From assembly GCA_963281255.1 (NCBI GenBank), contig OY725494.1, positions 2,245,934-2,309,933 on the forward strand: a DNA stretch of 64,000 nucleotides, in the 5' to 3' direction. Source of the DNA: Aphrocallistes beatrix. Taxonomy: Eukaryota > Porifera > Hexactinellida > Sceptrulophora > Aphrocallistidae. This document shows, piece by piece, positions 4,891 through 63,181 of this stretch; position 1 is the stretch's first letter, and each line of letters opens with the position of its first letter. A program made the translations under genes and the position numbers. The notes under the pieces were generated by a model. That model searched no databases. It worked only from the letters and a program-made list of their open reading frames with translations, and was not told the origin of the DNA.

Positions 4891-6044
4891 AGAATTTACA
4901 CCTGTGTGATATAGGATCTAAGATCAAATATAACATAGGTCAGTCAATAAGTCCTAATCCCATCACTGAATGTAAATGAGTAATAGGGAATGGGATAGAC
5001 TTGATTTTATTAACCTAATTTACTGAATTCCTTAGAGGATCATCTGATTGATAAATAAAATTGTTGTAGGACTAAAATTTAGTGCCTACTGCGGTCAATC
5101 ATAAACAAATCAGTGGAAGATGCATTGCCAAAAATAATATTTCCTAATGAAAGTGAATACAAAATATTTTTGTAGGCAACTCCGTTTATGGTCGTAAAGG
5201 AAAATATTCAATCTAAAATGTTAAAAAACAATGTAAAGATGCGAACGAGGTGTTCAGTCAAATCCCTTGGATAAACAAATATCATGCTACTAATAGCGGT
5301 GGAGAGTGGCAATATACCTAATTGAATAAAAAACTAGTATTCATAAACCGTATAAATATATTATCCAAAATAATCACTTTATTGGTCACTTGCTGCGTAA
5401 AATTCAATGAAATATTCATTTTTAATGTGTACTCAAAACTGAATGGTATAAGAGCAAACTTTAGGTAAATCCTATCGCAGAATGAGTGGATTAAACAATT
5501 TTATATTTTTAAGTTTCATAACTATACTAATGTAGATGTCATATAATGATTTTCTTCTGTGAGAGTGGGATTAGACATAATACGGTTTTAACTATCGCAC
5601 CAACAATAGCCTACTGCATATAAGGCCAGTAACTTGCGGATTTGGGAGGCCGTTTAAGGGCCCTTCTAAGTGTTTTATCATAAAGTTCTTTGCATAGAAT
5701 TGAGATATGAATGGGTTAATATGAAAAAAGTACGAATGCAGAGTGCTGATATTTGGTTGACAACCTTTCATTTTCAAGCTCTAAAAATTAAAAAATTAAA
5801 TTACATTTTGGATAAAGAATTGGGCCTGGAACTAACTGAATGCCCTACCAATTGCTCACAAACAAATTTGAATTGTCTAAAAACTAATACAAGTCAAACA
5901 ATTTAATCATAACAAATTTGTTATTCTTTTCACTAATTTTGCTAGACGTTAAACTAATTTGGTAGAGGTGATTTCACAAATTACCAAGCACAATAAAACG
6001 CTATTGATATTTAATATGTACAAGCGCGGGTCGTGGCTGGCTCG
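4891..6044. other. AT-rich spacer, no gene recognised
   Basis: Mostly unremarkable AT-rich DNA. A fragment at about 5605-5720 matches the CATAGCCTACT foldback family seen at 17326 and 53135. No ORF has codon structure or family similarity I can support. Confidence 0.5.
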
Positions 6045-23691: not shown

Positions 23692-23745
23692 CAAGCGCGC
23701 TTCGCTTGCTTTAAACAACCATTAATCGAGTTTTAATAGTAAGGA
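23692..23745 (-). mobile_element. 54-bp micro-Helitron (termini only), family A
   Basis: The 3' end CAAGCGCGCTTCGCTTGC is joined by a few bases to the complete 5' end (complement of TCCTTACTATTAAAACTCG). Host A and T flank it exactly as in long copies. Nothing else remains of the body. Confidence 0.85.
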
Positions 23746-27855: not shown

Positions 27856-30800
27856 TCAAAGGTCATCGTGTGTGTGGGTCTCTTCATTGTCATCATCATC
27901 AGATCCTGCCACTTCATCCCTATCGGCTTCCTCTTTGTCAGAAGCGGAATCTTCTGGTTCTGGTTCTGGCTCTGGTTCTACTGCGGCGTCTGGGTCTATA
28001 TCTAGGTTTGCACGCAGCATTCTGTCAATTCGATTTGCAAAATCAGAAGAGTCTGAGAGAGAGTAACCAGATCTGAGTAGGGCTGTGTCAAAGAGGAGAT
28101 GAGCCAGCTCTAAATCACTCTTGCCTACCGATTCGTCCTGCACTCGGCGTAACAGCTCACGAATCACAGGATGGCGAGGATTTATTTCTAGAGTTTTCTT
28201 CTGTTTCCTGTAAGTATCAGCCCCTGGCTGTGCATAAGCCTGAGCGGCTGCAACTCTCTCCATATTGGCAGACCATGCCCACTGAGCAGCGACCAGAACA
28301 CACGGAGAATCAGTTAGTCTATTGCTGACTGTAGCCTTTTCAATCTGCTCTGTGAGCGCTGTATCCTTGAGCCATGTGGTGAGAGGCTTGAACTCCTCCT
28401 GCTGACTCTCTAGCCTCTGTTTTGCAGTTTCTCCTTCATCAGAGAAAGTAAGGCCTTCCTTAGCGATGTCCTGGAATTTTTTACCTTCGTACTCTGGCAT
28501 GGATTGCATTAAGTACTCATCGATAGGATCAATAAAGTACAAAACCTCATAACCCTTCTTAAGTACCCTTTCCACAAATGGTGTGTTCTCTGCCTCTTCG
28601 CGATTTTTAGCAGCAAAGTAGTAGATATGTTCCTGCTGTGATTTCATTCTCTCGATGTATCCCTCTAAACTAGTTAGCTCCTCAGCATGGTGAGAAGATG
28701 AGAAGCGGAGGAGCTTTGCAAGGCGTGTCTTGTTATTTGAATCCTCGATAATGCCATACTTAAGAGAGCTTCCAAACTCCTTCCAGATCTTCTCAAATTC
28801 CTCATTCGGGAGCTTCTTGAGCATCTCTAAAGCCTTTCGAACCAACTTCTTCTTAATCACTTTCAGTAGTTTGTGTTGCTGCAGCGTCTCTCTACTCACA
28901 TTCAGGGGTAAGTCGTCACTGTCCACAACTCCCCAGAGCCAACTCAGATAGCGGGGCATCAAATTATCCAGGTCATCTGTTATAAAAATGCGACGTACGT
29001 ACATCTTGATACGATTACCCAATGACTTTCCGGAATCAGAATAGAAGGCAGGCGGAAGTTTATCAGGTACAAACAAGATAGAGCGAAATGTCAACTCTCC
29101 CTCTGCCGTGAAGTGAATCTTAGCTAGTGGATCTCCGCTCTCCTTAGTTAAGACTTTGTAAAACTCATTATACTCAGACTCTTCAACATCTTTCGCCTTG
29201 CGACGCCATATTGGCTTCGTGTCGTTCATCAATTCCCAGTCCCAGATAGTCTTCTCGACCTTTTTCGTTTTAGGCTTGTCTTCTTTGTCTTCAGTTACCT
29301 CCACGTCATCCTCAGGATGCTAATAAGAAGGATATAAAGGAAACATAAGTATCACTGCTAGTTCTAAAACAGGTCATGTTTTATACAATACCAGAACAAA
29401 AGTAATGCAAAGTTAGATTGAATCATAGATGGATCATAACACAAGGCCGTCAGATAGCGGCGGAAATGGCAGTGCGTGGTTGGGAGACTGATGGGTAAGC
29501 ATCATGGGTTTACCTAGGATTTTCTAATCCAGCACTTTTTTTATAACAGGCTGGCACCTATAAGTGCCGACAGAGCACCTAGATAAACCCCTGGTAAGCA
29601 TGGGCGTCCAATGAAGCGGGTAGACCATGGCTGCCCCACTTTTGAGGAGCTTCCGATGGCCCTGTAACAACTTAACATCATTCACCTTTCACCATTCACC
29701 ATTTATAGAAATCAAAACTTTTTACAAACGATTGAATGATGACGTATTGGCACTCCTCAATATTTTTAATTTATTCCTATAATTATTAAAATCATACCTC
29801 AATGTCTCCGGTAGTCTTGTCTGGATCAGCGTCTGCTTCTTCAGTATCTGATATCTCTTGCTCCTCTTCCTCAATTCTAGACTTCCATAGGTAGATAGGG
29901 AAATTGATGAATTGGGAATACTTATTAACCAGACTCTGTACAGAGCTTTCTTCTAAGAAGTTTTTCGCTTCCTCTTTCATGAACAAGCTGATAGTTGTTC
30001 CTCTTTGCAATGTGGACCCCCTAGGATCTTCCATAATTTTAAATTGAGACCCGTCACTCTCCCAAATGTACTGTTTGTCATCGTTGTGTTTGGTAGTTAC
30101 CACAACAGTGTCCGCCACCAGAAAGCTCGAGTAGAATCCAACTCCGAACTGGCCTATCAAATCCTGACTTACCTACACAATTACAATCCTAATACAATGT
30201 GATTGTTACTTCTCATGCCAACTTGTGCTAGTTAGTTATTGAAATAATGATATTATTTTGAGGAATTCGCTACATTGAGAAATCATACTCATTCCTCATC
30301 AAATTCTTACCACAACAGCCTAGTTTCTACGGTTTTGGATGACGAGCCCTTGGCTCGGTCGCTCCATGACGTGAACTCACCTTTCTTTAGAAAACAATTC
30401 AAGAAGAAAATTGTAGGTACAATAGAACCTTGTCAATAAGATCACCAGGGAACGGTCGAAATTTGTTCGTATCATCCAGAATTCATATCAACTGGAGTGA
30501 TTTACATATATTTTCCTCCGTAGGAGATAAAGTACGTATTAACGAGGTTCAACTATAGAACGATTTTAAATAGAAGTGGTTCTCTACAGTGGATACACCA
30601 TATAGGAACATGCTATATAAGAATATTATTCTTATATAGTTTAATATACCATATAAAAATATCCTTACTATTAAAACTCGATTAATCTATATCCTTACTA
30701 TTAAAACTCGATTATTGTTTGTGTATATATATGTTACAGGGTATCTGTAAAATCAGGGTAATTGTAATTACCCTGACTTTTTCAGGGTAATTGTAATTAC

Positions 30801-33800: not shown

Positions 33801-34990
33801 ATGTAATTTCCACAGTATTTAGCACTAGAAAATGAACATGTCTATATTTTCACACCTTTATATACGTAATAACTAAGGAGACATTTGACGACTTCATTCT
33901 TCCCCATACAAATAGTACTAAATTGGATCTTTTCTTGATGGGAAATGCATTCAAACTCTAAGAGTACTGTTGCGTGAAATCTTGAGATCGTATTATTTTG
34001 AGATATTGTAGCATTCTGAGATTTTGTTTCGCTTACTCAAATGTATTTGTGGTTAAATCGGTTTCATCGTAATTTGATAACCACAGGCACCAAATTGTGG
34101 CACATGACACAATTTGATGGCACGCGACACAATTAGTGATATGCGACACAATTTACTATGGTAGAACCCCTTATGGACCATAAATAGAAAATATAATTGA
34201 TCCACATGGGGGTTCTACCAAAGTAAATTGTGTCGCGTGCCATCAATCTCAAGAAATCACGGTACTAAATCATCCATGGTTACTTAATACTAGGATCTCA
34301 AAATATTACGATCTCACGCAACAGTACTAAGAATCTGATTTCAAATTCAATCTAAACCTTCGAATTACTAAGTATAGTTTTCTAATAAATTGTTCAAACG
34401 TATTAATAAGATCACCAAGCTGTGCCACTAGGGGTAATCCATCGCAATAAATGTATCCTTACTATTAAAACTCGATTAATGTGAATATACTACTATGTAT
34501 GTGTACATATATATATATATATCTGCAACGAATTGATTGAAGAAACTGCCTGGCGCAGAAAGCTGAATTTTGGCATGTGGGAGTCTTTTGGTTATGGCTC
34601 CATTGTCACATATTAAAAGTAAAGCAATACAGTTATTCGAGCATAACTCAGCCATTATTGGAGATAGAAGGCTGAAATTTTAATAAAATCTGTATACAAA
34701 CATGTCTCACATATGATACAACTATCATTAAAAAAGGATGACTCATCACTTTGTTATGACGTCATCATTACTCATCAAAATTTTAAAATTTGATAAATTT
34801 GGAGATTTTTCGTGCGATATCGATTATAACATGTGGACAGACGTATTTAGAGATGTTATTTCCCTTATGATTAATCAATGTGACTTCAGGCGCCCAAAGG
34901 GCGCCTCCGGCGGACACAAAGTGTCCGCCAGCCGCGCAGCGCAAGCAAGCGAAGCGCGCTTGTCCTTACTATTAAAACTCGATTAATGTG

Positions 34991-44955: not shown

Positions 44956-45001
44956 CAAGCGCGCTTCTATACAAACATTAATCGAGTTTTAATAGTAAGG
45001 A
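44956..45001 (-). mobile_element. 46-bp micro-Helitron (termini only), family A
   Basis: It begins CAAGCGCGCTTC and ends with the complement of TCCTTACTATTAAAACTCG, flanked by A and T. It sits 5 bp beyond the CGCTAGTCCGAAC MITE. Confidence 0.85.
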
Positions 45002-60029: not shown

Positions 60030-60253
60030 AAAGGAATCACTCTGCTATGACGTCATCATTACGCATCAAGAAGTGAAAAATTGACAAATTTTGTGCTTTT
60101 TCGAGTGATAACGATTATAACATTAAGACAGACGTATTTAGAGATGTTGTCTACCTTATAATTATCAATTTAAACCTAGGCGCTCAAAGGGTACCTGCGG
60201 CGGACACTTTGTGTCCGCCAGCCGCCGCAGCGCAAGCAAGCGTAGCGCGCTTG
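60030..60253 (+). mobile_element. Helitron-like 3' half, family A, at a tandem junction
   Basis: A body piece beginning near 60030 and ending GCGTAGCGCGCTTG at 60253, immediately followed by the next copy's TCC. Confidence 0.8.
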
Positions 60254-60272
60254 TCCTTACTGTTAAAACTCG

Positions 60273-62853: not shown

Positions 62854-63130
62854 ATGGCTAGTAACGGAAACATTCTTAGCATGTTCAGTGAAGCAGATAC
62901 AAACACCAAGTTATACCAGTGGATGACGAATCGTCCAAAAGACCCTAGTAGCGATACGTTAAAAGAGGTTTACAACGAACAGGCGTATTACTATGAAGAG
63001 TTTATGTGTTCTAAGTTGGGATGGTTGGGGTGGAAGGTAGGTGCAGAATTCCTCCATAATCAGCTGGAGAAATTTGGATTCCAGAAAGAAATTCATATTT
63101 TAGATGCAGGATCAGGAACTGGACTCGTGG
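62854..63130 (+). CDS. METTL27: METTL27-like methyltransferase, first coding exon (partial gene)
   Basis: ATG at 62854; 92 codons plus one base to a donor at 63131 (GTGG|GTATGA). The peptide has the pattern of METTL27 (WBSCR27) class I SAM-dependent methyltransferases: EVYNEQAYYYEEFMCSKLGW, then GAEFLHNQLEKFGF and the SAM-binding motif I ILDAGSGTGLVG, at the very end of the exon. Substrate of the family is not established. Later exons are not visible before 64000; the frame continues past the donor into a micro-Helitron and stops. The start codon is well placed relative to the family N-terminus. Some other member of the same methyltransferase group is possible. Confidence 0.7.
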
Positions 63131-63140
63131 GTATGATTTA

Positions 63141-63181
63141 TCTTATACGTATATTAAAACGCAAGCCGCGAAGCGCGCTTG
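63141..63181 (+). mobile_element. 41-bp micro-Helitron (termini only), family B
   Basis: It starts TCTTATACGTATATTAAAAC after host A and ends GCCGCGAAGCGCGCTTG before host T. It consists of just the two termini and sits 10 bp inside the METTL27-like intron. Confidence 0.8.

Follow-up and report, generated by a model that had tools for sequence, protein, structure and literature searches.

The window analysed here, a 64,000-nucleotide stretch of Aphrocallistes beatrix DNA, contains the beginning of a predicted methyltransferase gene near its right end. The last letters of exon 1 are ...CTCGTGG at 63130, and the donor GT follows at 63131. The second exon would start at about 64177, past the window edge, where ...TTTTAG is followed by GTAAGAGGATG. 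A gap of 10 bases (GTATGATTTA) lies between the donor-side end of exon 1 and an element of 41 bp, hereafter the 41-mer, whose letters (TCTTATACGTATATTAAAACGCAAGCCGCGAAGCGCGCTTG) were confirmed by an exact position check. The initial annotation had placed this element just within the first intron of a methyltransferase gene, with a host A and a host T on its outer sides. Both statements held: the 41-mer begins 10 bp past the inferred donor, a protein joined from exons 1 and 2 hits Pfam Methyltransf_25 (8.5e-12), and the flanking letters are A and T (Table 1). In the 100.5-Mb genome, the 121 bp spanning the 41-mer were located once, by a procedure that skips very common words.

The element had further been described as made only of Helitron termini, a 5' end joined to a 3' hairpin end. 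Both ends are indeed present and recur throughout the genome as real transposon ends. The element is nonetheless more than the sum of 20 and 14 bp, as 7 bp (GCAAGCC) stand between TCTTATACGTATATTAAAAC and GCGAAGCGCGCTTG; these include the 3' hairpin's outer left arm and the junction overlap. The 5' end opens with TC (TCTTATAC...), as Helitrons do, and the minimum-energy fold places a hairpin just before the 3' end (CAAGC-(C)-GCG-AAG-CGC-GCTTG), which is likewise a Helitron trait. This fold reaches -8 kcal/mol as DNA, with a z-score of only -1.57 and 13 of 200 shuffles equally good. The hairpin letters recur across the family. No match to Rfam was obtained for the whole window at gathering thresholds. 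The 3' tetranucleotide is CTTG and thus differs from CTRR, which PMC10095026 gives as the rule for Helitron 3' ends. Since the element ends in CTTG, not CTRR, we assign it by its letters to a Helitron-type family of this genome's own and not to the canonical CTRR Helitrons.

Table 1. Features at the 41-mer locus and related copies (window positions unless a contig is named).
Feature	Position	Strand	Remarks
Methyltransferase exon 1, start codon to splice donor	62854-63130	+	inferred from reading frames and splice letters
Inferred start of intron 1	63131-63140	+	GTATGATTTA; 41-mer directly after
Predicted empty A-T site, intron 1 locus			GTATGATTTA joined to TCTCTAATG
41-bp termini-only Helitron-type element	63141-63181	+	flanks A (63140) and T (63182)
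5' terminal piece, 24 bp	63141-63164	+	TCTTATACGTATATTAAAACGCAA; identical to 5' ends of L002, L003 and L016
CGCAA junction overlap	63160-63164	+	common to 5' and 3' pieces
3' terminal piece, 22 bp	63160-63181	+	CGCAAGCCGCGAAGCGCGCTTG; hairpin fold; identical to 3' ends of e.g. L035 and L037
Termini-only copy, 54 bp	23692-23745	-	other 5' end family (TCCTTACTATTAAAAC...); A...T flanks
Termini-only copy, 46 bp	44956-45001	-	A...T flanks
Termini-only copy L076, 37 bp	elsewhere		
Termini-only copy L077, 42 bp	elsewhere		
Termini-only copy L074, 48 bp	elsewhere		
Termini-only copy L084, 48 bp	elsewhere		
Termini-only copy L069, 58 bp	elsewhere		
Complete autonomous family-B copy, 9,587 bp	C2:4499201-4508787		open frame of 1,970 codons
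Complete autonomous family-B copy, 9,510 bp	C7:513922-523431		open frame of 1,947 codons

Genome-wide, the first 20 bases of the 41-mer were found at 42 places with up to two mismatches, its own locus included, and at 15 places exactly. The reversed control gave 6 places, which rules out a chance origin of this 5' 20-mer. A TC start was seen in 34 of the 42 places, the pattern itself opening with TC and allowing two mismatches. We cut out 30 of these places and, after exclusion of L029 (which starts with TG), counted an A directly before the 5' end in all 29 loci, among them the 41-mer. Most of the loci listed continue behind the 5' end into a shared interior, with variants of CTAGGATTTTTT and GAATTGATTGAAGAA. 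A second and larger 5' end family, TCCTTACTATTAAAACTCGAT (3,988 exact places, control 0), pairs with the same 3' end as the 41-mer, for example within the window.

The 3' end AAGCCGCGAAGCGCGCTTGT occurred at 75 places with at most one mismatch (control 0), and the 41-mer is among the 12 exact ones. Its terminal 15-mer GCGAAGCGCGCTTGT, a pattern that includes the CTTG, was present at 5,263 exact places, again against none for the control. In 29 of 30 loci taken from the 75 places a T directly followed the 3' end, a count biased towards T by a search pattern that ended in T with one mismatch allowed. Within the window, where the expression fixed GCTTG and left the next base free, T followed all 15 of the 3' ends. 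Judged from the flank letters only, insertion appears to have taken place between a host A and a host T without target duplication, as is characteristic of Helitrons. Both end types lie on one strand about 0.6-1.4 kb apart in six loci (L007, L012, L015, L026, L027 and L031), the stretches read from the 5' end reaching 1.5 kb downstream so that longer copies would have been missed. Starting from the 3' end, a family-B type 5' end was located 755-1189 bp upstream in L039, L042, L044 (exact AAGCC form) and L051 (one base different).

The genome also encodes potential partners for such ends. The Helitron Rep domain gave 106 genomic matches, many of them fragmentary, and two complete autonomous family-B copies on C2 and C7 (Table 1) share 98.9% identity over 6.9 kb. 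The C2 frame, the one scanned for domains, comprises Helitron_like_N (PF14214, 2e-58), a PIF1 helicase (PF05970, 1.1e-78) and an OTU domain. Both copies have an A before the 5' end TCTTATATATTAAAAC and close with the 3' end GCGAAGCGCACTTG, that is, with a TC start and a CTTG end. A Rep (HUH) and PIF1-like helicase partner with ends of the same type as those of the 41-mer therefore exists. The ends are not identical: the 5' end of the 41-mer contains a 4-bp insert, and its 3' hairpin departs by a single base. The C2/C7 pair probably reflects recent activity of the family. Because these complete and nearly identical copies carry same-type ends, the ends of the 41-mer belong to a probably recently active Helitron-type family. 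A third copy, L068, has a frame of 1,959 codons and belongs to the other 5' end family; its 3' end was not found within the stretch that we read.

If the 41 bp had been mobilised as a unit, as the initial annotation considered, several copies should share its internal junction at unrelated sites. The search for such copies that it had proposed yielded none: whether the middle was left free or the full 41 bp were sought with three mismatches tolerated, the element itself was the only place found genome-wide, and mobilisation of the unit is left unsupported. This outcome is one of the two observations that the initial annotation had named together as speaking against its idea. As no other place carries this junction, it appears to represent one private internal deletion and not a multiplying unit. 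The first 24 and the last 22 bases of the 41-mer are those of ends of other copies (Table 1) and overlap in the word CGCAA. Simulated junctions between 14 genuine 5' ends and 29 genuine 3' ends overlapped by 5 bp or more in 0.7% of cases. The full 5-bp overlap at the junction of the 41-mer was obtained with only 12 of the 406 parent pairs.

Nor is the 41-mer the only one of its kind. At least eight copies of 37-58 bp consist of termini only. In each, the 5' end belongs to a known family and starts with TC behind an A, and the 3' end is followed by T; all eight junctions differ. The shortest, L076, is with its 37 bp smaller than the 41-mer. To collect them, a 5' core (ATTAAAAC or ATTAAAA) was sought within about 30 bp of a 3' end, which gave 6 and 19 places with a union of 20. 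Of these, 12 were dropped, two only as ambiguous, so that eight is a lower bound. The ambiguous ones have canonical 5' ends, namely L082 with two facing 5' ends and one palindrome, and L085 with an abutting inverted 3' end. L072 and L073 represent a duplicated locus without a canonical 5' end, L080 has a family-B interior but no TC start, and C4:5431097 (L078) with its twin C4:5442844 as well as L075, L079, L081, L083 and L086 were also removed. Selection by an A followed by a TC start resembling a known family, with small differences allowed, means that the A flank of the eight is partly selected; the T was demanded by the 19-place pattern and not by the 6-place one. A regular expression run over 309 kb of gathered sequence gave no further match of the 19-place type, a weak check as much of that sequence had been fetched for those matches.

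Junctions and flanks of these copies were inspected as well. Among the seven other than the 41-mer, three overlap by only 1 bp, one contains 7 unassigned bases, and three mismatch early with every 5' end compared. To look for empty sites within repeats, the flanks of the eight copies (up to 150 + 150 bp) were joined and compared with all the gathered sequence; among the matches listed, only the own locus crossed a joint. To the right of the joint, a repeat begins after 4 bp in the copy at 44956-45001 and after about 24 bp in the copy at 23692-23745. Three of the eight, including the 41-mer, lie inside the window. With 9 of the 5,263 exact 3' ends, the window would be expected in proportion to hold about 0.01 termini-only copies. 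Since the window had been picked for one such copy, the surprise lies in the other two. Random decay does not explain this clustering.

Above the termini-only class, the strict 14-bp hairpin retrieved nine copies with differing interiors, five measuring 78-90 bp and four 100-121 bp. All nine start with TC behind an A in the manner of the known families and are followed by T. Among the 13 strict-hairpin copies, 4 fell into the shortest class against 1.5 expected from uniform breakpoints (P = 0.051). In L093, L094 and L096 (120, 100 and 121 bp) the interior includes an inverted copy of the 3' end, which produces long palindromes.

From its anatomy and from comparison between copies, we consider it probable, at roughly 60%, that the 41-mer is an inserted family-B copy which later lost its interior by internal deletion. 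A non-autonomous Helitron-type copy would first have landed in intron 1 of the methyltransferase gene, at a site between A and T. A deletion running from one CGCAA word, 20-24 bp from the 5' end, to another at the base of the 3' terminal hairpin would then have removed the whole interior; we infer this order of events, and end joining or replication slippage at the microhomology may have served as the repair route. By analogy with Helraiser, the remaining TC end would be where a Rep-helicase starts with a strand nick, and the remaining hairpin with its CTTG would be where it stops. Internal deletion is favoured because both ends match many independent copies, including long ones that have both, because the 5-bp overlap with the best parents is rare (0.7%), and because the absence of a second junction place is accompanied by shortened copies of other sizes (37-121 bp). 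Both ends, the A and T flanks, this overlap and the similar independent products are all observed. Given at least eight termini-only copies, all with different junctions, private internal deletions are judged from these letters to recur in this genome, and the termini-only copies as a class are most likely such recurrent derivatives, formed in place after insertion. Some observations argue against internal deletion: the 5-bp overlap is seen with the best parents only (12 of 406 pairs), the shortest class is somewhat fuller than uniform breakpoints predict, and the clustering of three of the eight in one 64-kb window goes beyond random decay. The junctions of the other seven, three of which overlap by only 1 bp, do not establish a common repair route for all eight either.

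Alternatively, the 41-mer was born short. During rolling-circle transposition of a long copy, the displaced or newly made strand would have switched between the two ends, 5' to 3', at a microhomology, creating a product of about 41 nt that inserted at an A-T site. Its single move as a 41-bp unit would thus have been the one that gave rise to it. The private junctions, each lying between A and T, fit such a single event per locus, and the slight excess of the shortest size class (P = 0.051) points the same way. Helraiser is described to yield truncated insertions ex vivo (PMC4778049), and circle junctions of a maize reporter Helitron lost end sequences, two of the three losses described showing short microhomology and one showing none (PMC10095026); the latter is a loose analogy, as these losses occurred at the circle joint. 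However, a later deletion would leave the same letters and flanks, and nothing positively favours birth as 41 bp. The sizes run from 37 to 121 bp without a clear separate peak, and the terminal sequences given for Helraiser measure about 150 bp (PMC5876387) against 20-30 bp here. We therefore regard birth at this length as unlikely for the 41-mer. The wider proposition, that the 37-58 bp copies in general were born by transposition and that the Rep-helicase needs only a 5' end of about 20-34 bp and a 3' hairpin of about 11-23 bp, seems to us a little more doubtful still. If true, these copies would document in nature which cis sequences eukaryotic rolling-circle transposition minimally needs.

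That the 41 bp form a minimal mobile family, copied by the Rep-helicase with a 20-24 bp 5' end and the hairpin sufficing in cis, is very improbable. Both termini are intact and probably recently active autonomous copies with same-type ends exist, but the junction of the 41-mer has no sibling, nor have those of the other seven in a search that needed exact cores of both ends. The sole repeated two-core junction, L072/L073, is a segmental duplication without a canonical 5' end, the flanks being identical over the 120 bp shown on the left and nearly identical on the right. About as remote, if not slightly more so, is a composite in which separate insertions or rearrangements joined the 5' fragment of one copy to the 3' fragment of another. 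Nested or abutting copies do occur (34962/34963 and 60253/60254 in the window, and L085); against this stand the single genomic place of the 121 bp around the 41-mer (very common words skipped) and the outer letters, A and T as expected. It is also a less simple course of events if two independent truncations have to meet while leaving both outer termini intact.

Among known systems, the 41-mer can be compared with MITEs and other derivatives left by internal deletion of cut-and-paste transposons, which lose the interior and keep the termini, often at microhomology. The 41-mer shares the missing interior and the kept termini; unlike them, it has neither terminal inverted repeats nor a target duplication, and no family amplification was found. 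The transposase associated with bacterial REP elements is of the HUH type. As described in PMC2817692, these elements resemble the 41-mer in being very short palindromic units tied to a (tyrosine) transposase, but usually exceed 100 copies per genome, whereas the junction of the 41-mer is single-copy. Non-autonomous, internally deleted Helitrons of animals and plants are alike in the 5' TC, the 3' hairpin and A/T flanks without target duplication, and presumably in relying on a Rep-helicase that acts in trans. They differ in ending with CTRR in place of CTTG and in length: one survey gives a mean of 441 bp for rice and 718-7847 bp for 23 predicted maize elements (PMC2575219), that is, hundreds to thousands of bp against 41 bp without an interior. 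Helraiser/Helibat1 of bats, according to PMC4778049 and PMC5876387, shares the TC start, the 3' hairpin terminator and the A-T target, and forms precise head-to-tail circle junctions. Its ends measure about 150 bp each (PMC5876387), those of the 41-mer about 20 bp each. The Helraiser palindrome is described as lying 11 nt before the end CTAG, whereas the hairpin of the 41-mer runs to the very 3' end. Among the papers listed in our literature search, neither a title nor the opening of an abstract concerned termini-only Helitrons this small, which does not show their absence from print.

If the termini-only copies are decay products, which we hold to be more likely, they still show how short the fossils of a large, probably recently active Helitron-type family can be, and such fossils may escape searches tuned to longer elements. 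If they were born by transposition, they would set a lower bound for eukaryotic rolling-circle ends of about 25 bp plus a hairpin of 11-20 bp, compared with the Helraiser ends of about 150 bp.

Several other arrangements of the same ends were noted. At 34949-34980 and 60240-60271 of the window, a CTTG 3' end directly abuts the 5' end TCCTTACT of a further copy, without an intervening host base, and at the C7:513922 copy the next 5' end, TCTTATAT, adjoins the CTTG end in the same way. Such head-to-tail joints are of the kind expected from circular intermediates. Two tandem bare 5' ends lie 30 bp apart at 30662-30709, and in L092 (C1:1717900-1718500) a span of about 240 bp holds eight exact 21-mer starts, all on one strand, spaced by 28-40 bp and each preceded by A. 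In L082 (C13:1122270-1122830) a single 12-bp palindrome, CAAGCGCGCTTG, serves both facing 5' ends as the 3' end. At L033/L063 (C3:2119455), no known 5' end was found within 1.5 kb of a bare 3' hairpin end. A reading frame that by eye resembles NHL repeats stops about 250 bp before this end, a possible case of gene-end capture.
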